Positions 10,825-19,869 of a DNA stretch of 47,971 bases are shown piece by piece. The position numbers were made by a program, and so were the translations under genes. Below the pieces are notes generated by a model. The model saw only the letters and a program-made list of their open reading frames with translations, was not told the origin of the DNA and made no database searches. Each line of letters opens with the position of its first letter. The stretch's first letter is position 1. The stretch is from Erysipelotrichaceae bacterium (lineage in GTDB: Bacteria > Bacillota_I > Bacilli_A > Erysipelotrichales > Erysipelotrichaceae): positions 1 to 47,971 of the forward strand of contig SVBJ01000013.1 in NCBI GenBank assembly GCA_015058955.1. Reading direction: 5' to 3'.

Positions 10825-12012
10825 TTATGCTTTTTCAAATATGTCGATAACGAACTGATTGGTTTCTTCCTCGGTATCGAAAGTGGCAATGTACATGTAG
10901 TTGCCCATGGTTCCTGCCAGGGCATCGGCTACGCGGCCTTCTTCCCTGATGTGGGAGCCATATCTGGCGTAGATCTCATCATGGTTCAGCTTGTAGTTGC
11001 GGCCGTCACGGCGTCCGGTGAAGACGCAGAACTGTGACTGCTCCTTGATGCGGTCGGTCTTGTCATAGGCGATCATGTCCGCCCAGATCTCATAGACGTC
11101 AGTACCGTTGGCATAGTTCATCATGGTAGGGGAGATGCCGCCGCTTGGTCTCATGTTGACTTCCAGCGCTACGATGTCTCCTTCCTTACCCAGATACTGA
11201 TCCTGGGTCAGCATGAAGAATTCCAGATGCGTGAAGCGATTCTTGACGTTGAAGGCTTTCAGGGTCCTGCGGCCGATTTCAGCCAGCTTTTCCGGAACGC
11301 GGTTACGGATGTAGAAGACACAGTCCAGCTCATCGTTGACGGTGTCCATCAGGCTTCTTGGGGTAACGTTGCCGGTCTCAAAGATCGGATCGCCGTTGGA
11401 ATCACAGATGGAGTCGAAGGTAACGACCTGACCGGTAATGAATTCTTCCATGATGTAGATCTCATCAGTCTTGGTTTCCAGGAAGTGACGCAGATCATCA
11501 TCACTCTTCAGCTTGTAGGTATGGGAAGCACCGACACCGTTGTCCGGTTTTACGATTACCGGATAACCGACTTCATCAATGAATTTACGGCAGTTGTCGA
11601 AGTCATCGACAAGGTGATATCTGGCTACCGGTACACCGGCCTTGATGTAGTTTTCCTTCATCCTGGACTTGAACTTGACCTGCGGCATGTCCTCGACCTG
11701 GAAGCCGGAAGTGATGTGGAAATCGGTACGCAGCTGGGCGTCTCTTTCCAGCCAGTATTCATTGTTTGATTCCAGCCAGTCAATGCGGCCGTACTTGAAG
11801 ATGAAGTAGGCGACGGCACGGTAGACTTCGTCGTAGTTTTCCAGGGAGGAGACTTTGTAATATTCATTCAGGGAATCTCTTAACTGCTGGGTCAGGTTGT
11901 CATACGGACAGTCACCGATGCCCAGAACTCTTAAACCGTTGCGCTTGAGATGGTTGCAGAAGTTCCAGTAGTTATCAGGAAAGTTCGGTGAGATAAAGAT
12001 AAAGTTTTTCAT
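10825..12012 (-). CDS. ATP-grasp domain protein (carboxylate-amine ligase type), product unknown
   Basis: The 395-aa protein has a Rossmann-like pre-ATP domain (about 1-110; FIFISPNFPDNYWNF). An ATP-grasp fold follows, with the phosphate-loop strand YPVIVKPDNGVGASHTYKL, the adenine-hinge region IYIMEEFITGQ, and metal ligands in VALEVNMRPSGGIS (E..N). It is related to the carbamoyl-phosphate synthase/biotin-carboxylase type common in peptide-ligating enzymes. Family chemistry is ATP-dependent ligation through an acyl-phosphate; the substrates cannot be read from sequence. AGGAGGAATTTT precedes the ATG and overlaps the stop of the upstream esterase gene, so the two are coupled. It is the last gene of a three-gene operon with two alpha/beta-hydrolases. 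Confidence 0.8.
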   Translation of the reverse strand: MKNFIFISPNFPDNYWNFCNHLKRNGLRVLGIGDCPYDNLTQQLRDSLNEYYKVSSLENYDEVYRAVAYFIFKYGRIDWLESNNEYWLERDAQLRTDFHITSGFQVEDMPQVKFKSRMKENYIKAGVPVARYHLVDDFDNCRKFIDEVGYPVIVKPDNGVGASHTYKLKSDDDLRHFLETKTDEIYIMEEFITGQVVTFDSICDSNGDPIFETGNVTPRSLMDTVNDELDCVFYIRNRVPEKLAEIGRRTLKAFNVKNRFTHLEFFMLTQDQYLGKEGDIVALEVNMRPSGGISPTMMNYANGTDVYEIWADMIAYDKTDRIKEQSQFCVFTGRRDGRNYKLNHDEIYARYGSHIREEGRVADALAGTMGNYMYIATFDTEEETNQFVIDIFEKA

Positions 12013-13734: not shown

Positions 13735-15390
13735 ATGAATCAGAAAGTCAGAAAAAGCAGCTTTGCTGAAAGCACATATTTGATGTATATAGCATTCATG
13801 ATTAACGGTATCATCGGGGCGCTGTACTATACGCCTTTTTTAGCGATGATCGGTCATGAAGGATTCTATGTATATGACAGTGCCTACAGCATCTTCTCGC
13901 TTTTCCTGGATCTTTCAACTTCCGGCATTCCGGTAGCCATGAGCATGATCGCTTCGGAATACAACAGCCTGGGCATGTATTCTTCCAAGGAGAAGGCCTT
14001 CAGCATCGGCAAGAAGATCATTACCGGATTCTCGCTGTTTTCCTTCTTCATTCTGCAGATATTTGCCCGCAACATCGGTTATTTCTACATCAGTGACGCC
14101 ATTGATCCTATGACAGCGGAAAGGATCGGCGATGCCGTCAGGATCGTTGCCTTTTCACTGTTGATAATTCCGTTCATGGCCCTTAAGAGAGGTTATCTGC
14201 AGGGGCACCAGCTGTTTGTGGTGTCATCCCGCAGCCAGCTGATCGAACAGATCACCCGTATCTCCGTGGTACTGGGCGGTGCCTTCATTACGGTCAAGGT
14301 CCTGGGTTATTCAGTATACGGCGGCGTATACATTTCCTTATGGGGACTTACGATATCCGGTCTGGTGACCTACTATTATCTGTCCCGTAAGACCGCCAAT
14401 AACGAAGAACTGTTCCAGAAGGGCAGTAAGGATGAGAAGGTTGAAAATACCAGAACGATCATCAAGAAGATCGTGGTATACTGCGTGATCATTTCCATCG
14501 TGTCAATGTCCCAGTCTCTCTACATGATCGCCAACAAGAAGCTGATCCTGGTCGCTCTCAGCAATCTCAACTACGGAAGTGCCCAGATCCAGGAGATCAT
14601 CGACATTGCGGTTTCCCTGGTTACCAAGATCGGTACCATTGTCATATCACTGTCACTGGCCATGACCAGTTCCATTGCTCCGCACATTGCCGGCAACTAT
14701 GCCAGACAGGACTATAAGGGAGTAAATGACAAGCTGAAGCAGGTGGTTTCCATCGTGCTGGTCATTGCCGTTCCGATGGCCGTCGGCATCATCTTGCTGG
14801 CTCCGCAGGTCTATTATGTATTCTTCGGCTTAAGTGAATACGGTCCTCGTGTCTTAAGAGTGGCCATTGCCTATAACGTCATCAGCTGTACGACCGCAGT
14901 GTTCTCCACAGCATTACAGAGCATGAATCATGGCAAGCAGGTGTGTGTTTTCACTCTGATCGCCATCGCTCTCAACATCGCCATGGACCTGCCGTTAATG
15001 TATCTGTTTAACTGGCTGGGATTGCCGCCTTATTTAGGTGCCAACCTGTCCAGCATCTTATCAGAACTGGTATTGCTGGCATTACAGTTAAGAACCCTGT
15101 ATGTAGTCGTTCACTTTGACTACCGCAAGGCTTTCACCATCATCCGTCAGATCCGGATCCCGTTAGTTGCCATGATGGCTCTGGTAGGGATCATGAAGAT
15201 ATTGATTCCGGTACCGCTGGTAAGCCGCTGGAAGGTTCTGGCTCTGCTGTTTGTCTATGCCGGACTGGGAGCTGCGCTGTATTTCTTCCTGTGCTACCGC
15301 TCAGGTGCTCTGCAGAATGTCTTTGATAAGGAAGTAGTGGATTCACTGCTGGCCAAACTGGGAAGGGGTAGAAAAAATGAAGAGAATTAA
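13735..15390 (+). CDS. MurJ/SpoVB/YtgP-type lipid-linked precursor flippase
   Basis: This 551-aa polytopic protein of the MOP (MVF/polysaccharide transporter) superfamily has about 14 predicted helices. The N-terminal pattern fits the SpoVB/YtgP group: FAESTYLMYIAFMINGIIGALYY, an FSLFLDLSTSGIPVAMS turn, and LKRGYLQGHQLF. These proteins flip lipid II or related undecaprenyl-linked intermediates across the membrane. Its last codons overlap the start of the MurT-like gene by 14 bases, and murC lies downstream, so a lipid II role (MurJ function) is likely. I cannot tell MurJ from a polysaccharide flippase by sequence alone. Confidence 0.82.
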   Translation: MNQKVRKSSFAESTYLMYIAFMINGIIGALYYTPFLAMIGHEGFYVYDSAYSIFSLFLDLSTSGIPVAMSMIASEYNSLGMYSSKEKAFSIGKKIITGFSLFSFFILQIFARNIGYFYISDAIDPMTAERIGDAVRIVAFSLLIIPFMALKRGYLQGHQLFVVSSRSQLIEQITRISVVLGGAFITVKVLGYSVYGGVYISLWGLTISGLVTYYYLSRKTANNEELFQKGSKDEKVENTRTIIKKIVVYCVIISIVSMSQSLYMIANKKLILVALSNLNYGSAQIQEIIDIAVSLVTKIGTIVISLSLAMTSSIAPHIAGNYARQDYKGVNDKLKQVVSIVLVIAVPMAVGIILLAPQVYYVFFGLSEYGPRVLRVAIAYNVISCTTAVFSTALQSMNHGKQVCVFTLIAIALNIAMDLPLMYLFNWLGLPPYLGANLSSILSELVLLALQLRTLYVVVHFDYRKAFTIIRQIRIPLVAMMALVGIMKILIPVPLVSRWKVLALLFVYAGLGAALYFFLCYRSGALQNVFDKEVVDSLLAKLGRGRKNEEN

Positions 15391-16723
15391 AGTGTTTCTG
15401 GCAGTACTGTTCTGCCGCTGTGTCCGTCTGGCTGCCAAGCTGGTAGGCAGGGGCAGCTCGATTCCGGGGTTAATAACTCTCAAGCTGTTCCCGGGCATTC
15501 TGGGTGACATTGAAATGCCGAAACTGGTGATTGCGGTTACCGGTTCCAACGGCAAGACCTCAACCGTGGAAATGATCCATAAGGTTCTGCTGGATGGGGG
15601 ACTGACTGTTGCCTGCAACTCGGAAGGCTCCAACCAGACCGAAGGTGTCGCAACCTGCATTCTGGCCAACTGCAGCTTATCCGGCAGGGTGAAGACCGAT
15701 GTGGTCTTACTGGAATCAGATGAACAGTATGCCCAGCATACGTTCAAGTACTTCCAGCCTGATTACTTCTTCATCACCAATCTCTACCGTGACCAGCTGA
15801 CCCGTAACGGCCATCCGGAATGGATCGCCAATGTGATTTCCAGAAGCTTCTCTGATAAGATGACCCTGGTACTCAACCGGGATGACCCGCTGGTTTCATC
15901 ATTAGGTGAAGGCAGGGAAAAGGTCATCTACTTTGGAGCTGATCACTTAAAGGGTGATAAGACGGTCAATACCAGCATCTACAATGACGGAAGCTACTGC
16001 CCGATCTGCAAGCATCCGTTAAAATACGATTACTATCATTACAATCACATCGGCAGCTATCATTGCGATAACTGCGGATTCAAGAGAAATAAGACTGATT
16101 ATACACTGACAGCCGCTGACTTTGATGAAGGCTACATCATCATCAACGGCCAGTACCGCATTGATCTGGCCTTCAAGGGGATCTACCACTGCTACAATAC
16201 TCTGGCAGCCTTTGCGGCCGGAGCCATTGCAGGGGTTTCACCGGAAAGCGCTGTCAAGACCTTAAATAATTACAACATGACTTCAGGACGCGTACAGAAG
16301 GTCGTCTTCGGGGGAAGAGAAGGAACTCTTCTCGCCAGCAAGCATGAGAATTCCATTTCCTATGACCGCTCCATTGACGTAGCCATCGCCGATAAGAACA
16401 AGCCGGATGTCATGATCATCGTTGATGCCATTTCCCGCAAGTACTTCACTTCGGAGACCAGCTGGCTGTGGGACATCGACTTTGAAAACCTCAATAACGA
16501 AAACATTGGCAACATCGTGCTGGCTGGCCGCTACTGCTATGATCTGGCGGCCAGATTTGAATATACCGGCATCCCGGCGGAAAAGATCCAGGTATTTGAA
16601 TCAATACCGGCCCGGGCTGACTGGCTCAAACAGGATAAGGAGCATCCGTTCTATGTGATTACCTGCTTTGCCGATTCCGGCAAGGTACTGGCCTTAAGCG
16701 AGATAAAGGGGGTGAGGTTATGA
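15377..16723 (+). CDS. murT: MurT-like Mur ligase with altered C-terminal domain
   Basis: MurT with GatD normally amidates the alpha-carboxyl of D-Glu in lipid II. This 448-aa protein has the MurT layout: P-loop VTGSNGKTST (54-63), ESDE and YRDQL central-domain motifs, an inserted Cys4 zinc ribbon (C208, C211, C230, C233), and a C-terminal MurT/DUF1727 domain ending in SWLWDIDFE and a LAGRYCYDLAARF helix. Differences are clear in the C-terminal domain. The usual LxKNPAGxN segment reads LASKHENSISYD (319-330), and the NDxxADGxDxSW segment reads VDAISRKYFTSETSW (349-363). ATP binding looks intact. The stop overlaps the next ATG (ATGA), as in normal murT-gatD pairs. Family membership is firm; the reaction is not. 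Confidence 0.88.
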   Translation: MKRIKVFLAVLFCRCVRLAAKLVGRGSSIPGLITLKLFPGILGDIEMPKLVIAVTGSNGKTSTVEMIHKVLLDGGLTVACNSEGSNQTEGVATCILANCSLSGRVKTDVVLLESDEQYAQHTFKYFQPDYFFITNLYRDQLTRNGHPEWIANVISRSFSDKMTLVLNRDDPLVSSLGEGREKVIYFGADHLKGDKTVNTSIYNDGSYCPICKHPLKYDYYHYNHIGSYHCDNCGFKRNKTDYTLTAADFDEGYIIINGQYRIDLAFKGIYHCYNTLAAFAAGAIAGVSPESAVKTLNNYNMTSGRVQKVVFGGREGTLLASKHENSISYDRSIDVAIADKNKPDVMIIVDAISRKYFTSETSWLWDIDFENLNNENIGNIVLAGRYCYDLAARFEYTGIPAEKIQVFESIPARADWLKQDKEHPFYVITCFADSGKVLALSEIKGVRL

Positions 16724-17433
16724 TCAGAATTCTGTATTTATATCATGATCTGATGAACCTCTATGGCGATAACGGCAACGTCCGCGTCCTGGAAAGATAC
16801 CTTAAGGATCAGGGCGAGCAGGTAACTGTTGACCGTAAGAGTCTGCAGGATGAATTTGACATCAGTCAGTATGATTTCATCTATTGCGGCCGGGGTACGG
16901 AGAAAAACCGCAATGCTGCCTTAGCTGACTTAAAGAAGCATGAAAACGAACTGAAAAAAGCTTATGAAGCAGACAAGGTGATCCTGTTTACCGGAATCAG
17001 CTGGCAGATGCTCGGAAAGGTCATTGTAACGGCCGATAATGTAACACTTGAGGGATTAGGCCTGTCAGATTTTACTGTCACAGAAGGCTCTAAAAAGCGC
17101 TATGTGGGGGATGTGCTGGCCCGCAGCAAAATGTTTGATGAGATCTTTGTCGGCTTCATCAACCGTGCCAGCCAGGTTAAAAACCTCAATGAGCCTTTCA
17201 TGACAATTGAAAAGGTCATCGGCAACATCCCTGACAGATATGACGGGATCCATCAGAGAAATCTGTTTGGAATATCTCTTAACGGACCGGTGCTGGTCAA
17301 AAACCCGCATTTTGCCCGTTACATCGTGAAACTGCTGGTCAGTGACTATCACGAAATTGACTATGTAAACGAAAGAAAAAGCTACAAAACAACCATACAC
17401 GAACTTACTGAAGACCGGGAGAAACATAAATGA
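16720..17433 (+). CDS. gatD: GatD-like amidotransferase subunit lacking catalytic Cys and His
   Basis: GatD supplies ammonia from glutamine to MurT. This 237-aa protein aligns along its length with my recollection of Staphylococcus aureus GatD: LYGDNGNVRVLERYLK, LEGLGLSDFTVTEG, VGFINR and FGISLNGPVLVKNPH. The nucleophile motif CGGYQ reads GISWQ, so Cys94 aligns with G92 (codon at 16993). The catalytic His of YLHGP is N188 in SLNGP (codon at 17281). The GFENH motif is GFINR. The frame is open, spacing with murT and dnaD is tight (ATGA overlaps), and the fold core is conserved. I therefore read it as a maintained, catalytically altered protein, not a pseudogene. Glutaminase activity is not expected. 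Confidence 0.85.
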   Translation: MIRILYLYHDLMNLYGDNGNVRVLERYLKDQGEQVTVDRKSLQDEFDISQYDFIYCGRGTEKNRNAALADLKKHENELKKAYEADKVILFTGISWQMLGKVIVTADNVTLEGLGLSDFTVTEGSKKRYVGDVLARSKMFDEIFVGFINRASQVKNLNEPFMTIEKVIGNIPDRYDGIHQRNLFGISLNGPVLVKNPHFARYIVKLLVSDYHEIDYVNERKSYKTTIHELTEDREKHK

Positions 17434-17933
17434 AGAAATGGTATCAGGAACGCTACTTTTCCCGCCGCGACTGGCTGCTGGAAAACATGAACAGACTCGA
17501 AATCAGTCCCACCCAGGGGCTGATCCTTCTGCTTATTGACTATTATCAGGAAGGCCGCCAGGTCGTCACCATGGAGAATCTGGCCATGCAGTGCCATCTG
17601 GATCTGGAAGAGATCGATGCAGCCATCGATGATCTGGTCAAGATGGACTACCTGGTGATTTCCACCAAGAACCGCAAGGTCTATTTTGACATTTCCGGCG
17701 TCTTTGAAGACAGACCTAAACTGGAAGTATCCCGTGATCTTTTTGAAGTGTTTGAAGAGGAATTCGGACGCCCGCTGTCCCAGAAGGAAATGATCGCCAT
17801 TTCCCAATGGCAGCAGTCCTATGATTCCAAGACCATCATCAAGGCTTTAAGAGAAGCGGTCATTCAGGAAAAGCTGAGCACCAGCTACATTGACCGCATT
17901 CTGGAGAACTGGAGCAGAAATGGCAAGGTATAA
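17430..17933 (+). CDS. dnaD: DnaD-like primosomal replication initiation protein
   Basis: DnaD works with DnaA, DnaB and DnaI in loading the replicative helicase at origins and restart sites in Bacillota. This 167-aa version is shorter than Bacillus DnaD. It keeps the N-terminal winged-helix domain (about 1-90; SPTQGLILLLIDYY, LDLEEIDAAIDDLVKMDYL) and the C-terminal DnaD helical domain (about 105-165; LFEVFEEEFGRPLSQKEM, YIDRILENWSRNG). GGGAGAA precedes its ATG, which overlaps the gatD-like stop. The dnaD-nth order is typical of Bacillota. Confidence 0.85.
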   Translation: MKKWYQERYFSRRDWLLENMNRLEISPTQGLILLLIDYYQEGRQVVTMENLAMQCHLDLEEIDAAIDDLVKMDYLVISTKNRKVYFDISGVFEDRPKLEVSRDLFEVFEEEFGRPLSQKEMIAISQWQQSYDSKTIIKALREAVIQEKLSTSYIDRILENWSRNGKV

Positions 17934-18564: not shown

Positions 18565-19869
18565 ATGAAGTATTACTGTTTGGGAATAAAGGGAACCGGA
18601 ATGAGCACCCTGGCGCAGATCCTTTACGATCTGGGCAATGAAGTGTGCGGTTATGATGACGTAAAGGACTACAAGTTCACTCAGAAGGGACTTGATACCC
18701 GCGGCATTGAGGTGTTCTGTGACAACCAGCATCCGCTGGATCCGGAAATGATCGTTACCTATTCCGTGGCTCTGCCGCTGGATCATAAGGAACTGGTCAG
18801 ATGCCGCCAGAATGGCCTGACCATCAGAAAATACAATGAAATAGTGGGGGAAGTAACTTCCCTGTTTAGGACCATATCGGTCAGCGGCACTCATGGCAAG
18901 ACCACCACGAGTTCCCTGATCAGACACATTCTGGAACATACCGTCGGCACCAATTACTTCATCGGGGCAGGGGACGGACATGTGGATAAGGAACATGATT
19001 TCTTCGTGATCGAATCCGACGAATTCAATAAACATTTCGTGACCTATCATCCTAGTTATACCGTCATCACCAACATTGAAGAGGAACACATGGAGTGTTA
19101 CCGCGACCTGCAGGACATCATCGATACCTTCGGGATCCTGGCAGCCAATACGAAAAAGTTCATCATCGCCTGCGGTGATAATCCAAATGTCAGAAAGGTC
19201 AGGACAGACAGGGAAATCCTGTACTATGGTTTCAATGAAGACAATGACATCGTAGCCCAGATCACGGACATGAACAGGCGCTATTCCGTCTTCCGCGTCA
19301 GATTTGCAGACCTGGATGAGGAATTTGAAGTACCGCTGTTTGGCGCTCACATGGTCTTGAATGCCACAGCTGCCATAGCTATGTGTTACAAGCTGGGCAT
19401 CAAGGCCGAAGACATCAGGGAAGCCCTGAAGGATTTCCGCAATGCCACCAGAAGAATGGAAGAAACTGAATTGGGTCAGGGAATCACTCTGATTGATGAC
19501 TATGCTCATCATCCAACCGAAATTGCTGCCACCATTTCCTCAGTGCGTCAGAAATACCCTGACAGGAAGGTTACTGCCATCTTTAAGCCGAATACCTATT
19601 CCCGTACCGTTGACTTCACTGAGGGCTTCATAAGGGCTCTGGGAAAGGTTGACAGAGTATACCTGACGGAAATAGATTCCAATCGTGAAAAACAGGAAGA
19701 TTATCCGGGAGTATCATCACGCATGATCACTGACGGCATTGAAGGCTCACAGATCGTCAATGAAAACGCACTGGACAATCTGGTGGTACAGCCGGGTGAG
19801 GTATTACTTGTAATGTCTTGTGCCTCGGTAAGCCATCTGATTGAAAACATAAAAAAGAAATACAGTTAG
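18565..19869 (+). CDS. murC: UDP-N-acetylmuramate--L-alanine ligase
   Basis: The enzyme adds L-Ala to UDP-MurNAc using ATP, the first step of stem-peptide synthesis. The 434-aa protein has IKGTGMSTLAQIL at the N-terminal UDP-binding domain, P-loop SGTHGKTTTSSLI near residue 111, FFVIESDEF and NIEEEHMECY in the central domain, and DDYAHHPTEI in the C-terminal ligase domain. Spacing to nth is 3 bases. It ends the flippase-murT-gatD-dnaD-nth-murC run at a perfect palindromic terminator. Confidence 0.94.
   Translation: MKYYCLGIKGTGMSTLAQILYDLGNEVCGYDDVKDYKFTQKGLDTRGIEVFCDNQHPLDPEMIVTYSVALPLDHKELVRCRQNGLTIRKYNEIVGEVTSLFRTISVSGTHGKTTTSSLIRHILEHTVGTNYFIGAGDGHVDKEHDFFVIESDEFNKHFVTYHPSYTVITNIEEEHMECYRDLQDIIDTFGILAANTKKFIIACGDNPNVRKVRTDREILYYGFNEDNDIVAQITDMNRRYSVFRVRFADLDEEFEVPLFGAHMVLNATAAIAMCYKLGIKAEDIREALKDFRNATRRMEETELGQGITLIDDYAHHPTEIAATISSVRQKYPDRKVTAIFKPNTYSRTVDFTEGFIRALGKVDRVYLTEIDSNREKQEDYPGVSSRMITDGIEGSQIVNENALDNLVVQPGEVLLVMSCASVSHLIENIKKKYS

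Follow-up and report, generated by a model that had tools for sequence, protein, structure and literature searches.

A 47,971-nucleotide stretch of DNA from an Erysipelotrichaceae bacterium (contig SVBJ01000013.1 of assembly GCA_015058955.1; hereafter the window) carries a MurT-GatD gene pair in which the parts that make ammonia are gone and those that activate a carboxylate are kept. We propose, with a probability of roughly 55%, that this former amidotransferase now works as an amino-acid ligase whose target is the alpha-carboxyl of D-Glu, onto which it loads a cross-bridge amino acid. This is the carboxyl at which the cross-bridge of group B peptidoglycan, a wall type used in bacterial classification, begins. 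We know of no enzyme for the first bond of that bridge, and our literature search found no paper on a known group B ligase. The wider form of the proposal, to which we give about even odds, is that the step defining group B peptidoglycan is performed by MurT-GatD pairs that lost glutaminase function on separate occasions in Bacillota and in Microbacteriaceae, and whose GatD is now an amino-acid-binding subunit. The change from glutamine amidotransferase to amino-acid ligase would then seem to have happened two or more times, many genomes would hold a specific, testable gene pair for the first group B bond, and pairs whose GatD lacks the catalytic cysteine (Cys-less or variant pairs) are probably mislabelled when automatic annotation calls them "lipid II isoglutaminyl synthase".

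Residues lost and kept

The window pair has the MurT_C and Mur_ligase_M domains (78.8 bits, against a cut-off of 25, and 56.9 bits), the ATP residues and the adjoining GATase_3 partner (60.8 bits, cut-off 27) that mark the family, and stays far below the NCBIfam equivalog cut-offs for MurT-GatD (191 against 800 and 122 against 400). Its closest solved relatives are MurT and GatD of Streptococcus pneumoniae, Staphylococcus aureus and Streptococcus pyogenes, and the predicted model of the window MurT (predicted local distance difference test, pLDDT, 87.6) has experimental MurT chains as its top structural matches. Alignment with S. aureus GatD places Gly at C94 and Asn at H189. In amidation or glutaminase assays, S. 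aureus GatD carrying C94G, C94S, C94A or H189A shows no activity (PMC6113224, PMC6085368, PMC5871853), and because both of these residues, each essential there, have been lost, the window GatD is expected to be dead as a glutaminase and no longer to hydrolyse glutamine. The claim of an earlier, sequence-only reading of this DNA that its GatD cannot supply ammonia is thus supported, as is its description of a MurT with altered C-terminal motifs and preserved ATP- and zinc-binding parts: the ND..xDG motif has been replaced, Glu stands at D349, and the P-loop Lys59, Glu108, Asn85, Asn267 and all four zinc cysteines are present.

The retained residues are those that would be needed to activate a carboxylate. 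S. pneumoniae MurT becomes inactive when Asn85 is changed, and in MurD and MurF the corresponding Asn is in contact with the acceptor carboxylate; Lys59, Glu108 and Asn85 are each kept in 133 of 133 variants (37/37 from Bacillota and 96/96 from Microbacteriaceae). Arg128 of GatD, which captures free glutamine in the S. aureus protein and without which that protein has no glutaminase activity, is kept in 35 of the 37 Bacillota and 86 of the 95 Microbacteriaceae variants, and the oxyanion-hole Gly60 is mostly replaced in both lineages. Set beside the lipid II isoglutaminyl synthases of S. aureus and S. pneumoniae, the window pair therefore has the same gene order, fold, ATP site, zinc ribbon, acceptor-carboxylate Asn, Arg128 and interface Gly-Pro, but lacks the catalytic Cys and His and the oxyanion Gly, and has a different gate loop in addition to the replaced ND..xDG motif.

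With the ammonia-making parts gone and the carboxylate-activating parts and Arg128 kept, an amino-acid ligase is the simplest account. Judging from the conserved residues, the variant MurT would bind ATP and the acceptor carboxylate and then phosphorylate the latter, and the variant GatD, through Arg128, probably binds or positions the incoming amino acid or else keeps MurT in an active conformation. D-Glu(2) would thereby receive, on its alpha-carboxyl, the amino acid with which the group B cross-bridge begins; substrate, nucleophile and product are all inferred. Such a reaction would resemble those of MurC-F, in which ATP-dependent activation of a stem-peptide carboxylate is followed by attack of an amine, although the variant pair has no counterpart of their N-terminal UDP-binding domain and includes a GATase-fold subunit. 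An altered peptide-wall context is likewise the setting of the MurT relatives, MurT and MurT-like proteins, found in pseudomurein archaea (PMC11915815), but those archaea with a MurT-like protein only have no GatD, and the window pair is not of the archaeal type.

A profile search of the source genome finds exactly two MurT_C genes and detects no normal MurT-GatD pair. The second pair (L002/L059) differs from that of the window and also has a changed GatD (Cys to Gly, His to Leu); where a genome has two different pairs, as here, one might speculate that the second serves the next bridge residue or another substrate. Compared with a congener, the ratio of nonsynonymous to synonymous substitution rates (dN/dS) is 0.24 for the window GatD and 0.12 for its MurT, within a range of 0.08-0.24 for all four genes of the two pairs. 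The variant pairs are under purifying selection, and these values indicate working genes.

Distribution and two origins

We surveyed 148 genomes of the order, assigning MurT classes by profile score, which separated the groups well. MurT was found in 78 genomes and no pair was detectable in 70; a full-length variant profile again gave 78/148, and the suspicion that PF08353 alone had missed divergent copies was dropped. Fifty-four genomes have only the canonical pair, 24 only the variant and none both (Fisher p 9e-6, uncorrected for phylogeny, a value that overstates independence given the shared ancestry within genera). In the order, the Cys-less pair replaces the amidating pair and never accompanies it.

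When the GatD proteins of all variants and of 33 canonical loci of the order were read together with loci from other Bacillota, Cys94 was Gly in 37/37 variants and Cys in 48/48 canonical proteins, and His189 was lost in the former (37/37) and present in the latter (48/48). The losses in the window are therefore not chance, being shared by every Bacillota variant and by none of the 48 canonical proteins. The MurT loop that faces GatD, the ammonia gate, changes from RDQxDRxGE to RDxxxRNxH, with D137 present in 49/49 canonical and 0/37 variant proteins; the ND..xDG motif, too, has been replaced. Position 349 of MurT is D, E, N or another residue in Bacillota variants and Asp in 96/96 Microbacteriaceae variants; an early idea that Asp349 is always lost was discarded, since Asp or Glu stands there in most type I pairs. 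The Bacillota variants extend to Clostridia, Vescimonas fastidiosa among them, and on the MurT tree make up a single clade (100/99); it comprises two types, and the window's genus has both. The type I pair accompanies murC in g1, and type II neighbourhoods are variable. At one locus (L058:4288-6386) the gene order is inverted, the variant GatD preceding its MurT.

A second loss was found in another phylum. MurT_C is present in 222 of 394 Actinomycetes genomes; the GatDs beside the stronger matches have Cys in all 31 cases read, and among the weak matches, nine genomes (2.5-3.8 Mb) proved to carry divergent MurTs with a GatD that lacks Cys. We sampled 150 genomes of Microbacteriaceae, the family of one of these nine, and read 110 GatD loci: 95 are Cys-less, 14 have Cys and one, from Rhodoluna, could not be assigned by alignment and by eye has no Cys. 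At Cys94 the 95 have Gly (69), Ala (16), Ser (4), Asn (4) or Thr (2). By genome, a Cys-less pair is present in 94/150, including Rhodoluna, and two of these 94 have an extra Cys-containing copy. The Microbacteriaceae variants branch inside Actinomycetes and apart from the Bacillota clade (100/99 each), so a single origin of all Cys-less pairs is rejected and two independent origins are well supported. At all 15 mapped Microbacteriaceae loci the pair occupies one housekeeping locus, with a sigma-70 gene on one side and a gyrB/parE-type gene on the other.

Three further observations concern Actinomycetes. Open reading frames of alanine-racemase type adjoin the Cys-less pair in some Microbacteriaceae (L308, L314, L318, L321, L322) and could furnish D-diamino acids for the bridge. 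A third lineage (L216, L217) has GatD Cys replaced by Asp, with the His kept. A plasmid of Leifsonia shinshuensis (L064:5001-6982) carries a Cys-containing MurT-GatD, its MurT without the zinc ribbon, beside a VanY-like M15 peptidase; it keeps both Cys and His and is of a separate type.

Group B walls and competing explanations

Members of Microbacteriaceae have group B-type peptidoglycan (PMC10978784), and the wall of one of them, Rhodoluna lacicola, has been chemically determined as B2beta (PMC4156110). Our genome G558 consists of one contig (1,430,433 bases), with 51.56% G+C in the sampled DNA and both diagnostic 16S oligonucleotides of R. lacicola, whose description gives 1,430,433 bp, 51.53% G+C and these two oligonucleotides (PMC4156110); the base count and both oligonucleotides identify it as this species and the family as Microbacteriaceae. 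The only MurT-GatD pair detected in this organism with a measured group B wall is Cys-less.

Several findings weigh against the proposal. In a search of six genomes of Erysipelothrix (g23), a genus with a group B wall, for Mur-ligase-type genes, five lack MurT-GatD. These five contain only five such genes, MurC, MurD, MurE, MurF and FolC, and thus no extra Mur ligase that could serve as a group B enzyme. If the wall of this genus is indeed group B, another enzyme is needed there, and group B cross-linking does not seem to require the variant pair. The genus was recognised by 16S primer sites (in G073, MO102 exact and MO101 with one mismatch; primers from PMC9416451). Microbacteriaceae have exceptions too, 56/150 genomes being without a Cys-less pair (12 Cys-only and about 44 with no detected pair), so the pair is not present in every group B organism; moreover, His189 is retained in 62 of the 95 variants of this family, and the glutaminase has not been erased alike everywhere. 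Some variant genomes also hold FemAB genes typical of group A bridges. Finally, the S. aureus pair needs GatD even with ammonia as substrate (PMC6085368), so a purely structural variant GatD would also be possible.

The sequence-only reading, which suggested comparing Cys-less GatD with wall type, is partly supported: the Cys-less pair is present in R. lacicola and in most of the sampled Microbacteriaceae genomes, and absent from most of the tested genomes of Erysipelothrix, the genus it named. Its central suggestion, a ligase that activates D-Glu and accepts an amino acid, gains from the exclusivity in the order, the second loss in a group B family and the preserved carboxylate machinery and Arg128, and loses from the same Erysipelothrix and Microbacteriaceae exceptions. 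Overall, the independent test in a second phylum lends the group B reading further weight, yet there is no one-to-one rule.

The alternative that survives best, although we consider it unlikely, is that another ligase, most probably of the ATPgrasp_ST family (PF14397), loads the amino acid onto D-Glu and that the variant pair performs a neighbouring step, for example the addition of a later bridge residue. These proteins are candidate carboxylate-amine ligases of unrelated fold, found in 20 of 24 variant, 0 of 54 canonical and 13 of 70 MurT-less genomes of the order (variant against canonical, Fisher p 5e-15, uncorrected), and their gene adjoins the type II pair in three genera (L042, L040, L053). 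They also occur in the Erysipelothrix genomes tested, usually in two copies; in G073 (L323) one lies a few kilobases from a probable murI. However, PF14397 is missing from four variant genomes, other members of the family may serve capsule or teichoic-acid loci, the counts come from the genomes of the order alone, and the acceptor-carboxylate machinery of the variant MurT is intact.

Rather less probable is a GatD that is a mere scaffold for a MurT amidating D-Glu with free ammonia. S. aureus MurT-GatD does use ammonia directly at pH 8.5, still requiring GatD (PMC6085368), and gut habitats are rich in ammonia, but the ammonia gate loop has been rebuilt in Bacillota variants, with the loss of D137 and a new Arg-Asn-x-His; Cys loss recurs in free-living Microbacteriaceae, where group B walls carry the bridge on that very carboxyl; and there is no obvious reason why a scaffold would retain Arg128. 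We think it improbable that the pair is a regulatory pseudoenzyme or that its acceptor is something else, such as a cofactor or a different lipid-linked glycan: the variable type II neighbourhoods, and flippases that are MurJ/SpoVB-like and not clear MurJ, are consistent with this, whereas the company of type I and murC in g1, the exclusion of the amidating pair, and the invariant ATP and acceptor residues argue against it. Relaxed decay once the wall had stopped needing amidation, which the 70/148 related genomes without a detectable pair might suggest, is very hard to reconcile with the dN/dS values, intact frames, identical Cys-to-Gly change in 37/37 variants and new conserved motifs.

Genomic context of the window pair

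The features of the locus are listed in the table. The flippase, MurT, GatD, DnaD-like, endonuclease III-like and murC genes all lie on the plus strand; the end of the flippase gene overlaps the MurT start by 14 bases, and MurT and GatD are joined by an ATGA overlap. The sequence-only reading placed the pair between a lipid II-type flippase and murC. That order is correct, but the flippase scores just below the MurJ cut-off of 27.4 bits, and two genes intervene before murC, the DnaD-like gene and then an endonuclease III-like open reading frame recognised by eye. A flippase of the same class precedes the pair in the congener G107 (L035), and another precedes a type II pair at L042.

Table. Features of the window locus (positions in the window)
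Feature	Position	Strand	Details
MurJ/SpoVB-like lipid-linked precursor flippase	13735..15390	+	Pfam MatE 36.9, Polysacc_synt 36, MurJ 27.3 bits
Variant MurT (type I), ATP-dependent Mur-type ligase subunit, remodelled gate loop and C-terminal motif	15377..16723	+	448 aa
Cys4 zinc ribbon of variant MurT (Cys208, 211, 230, 233)	15998..16075	+	(nearly) invariant across alignments
Variant GatD, GATase_3 fold, catalytic Cys to Gly and His to Asn, Arg128 kept	16720..17433	+	237 aa
Nucleophile-elbow region of variant GatD, residues 90-99	16987..17016	+	FTGISWQMLG vs canonical ICGGYQLLG
DnaD/DnaB_2-like replication protein	17430..17933	+	overlaps stop of variant GatD
murC	18565..19869	+	TIGR01082 333.5 bits

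Elsewhere in the source genome, two MurE-type ligases lie close together on contig C21 (L150:4108-5619 and L150:7619-9208). Both lack the usual DNPR/DDPx motif, having SDSR and SGHLR instead, as do their counterparts in G107, and such proteins would fit an unusual stem peptide. No FemAB gene was found in the source genome. Within the window, an ATP-grasp protein of uncertain family is encoded at 10825-12012 on the minus strand, opposite to the pair and about 3.4 kb from it.

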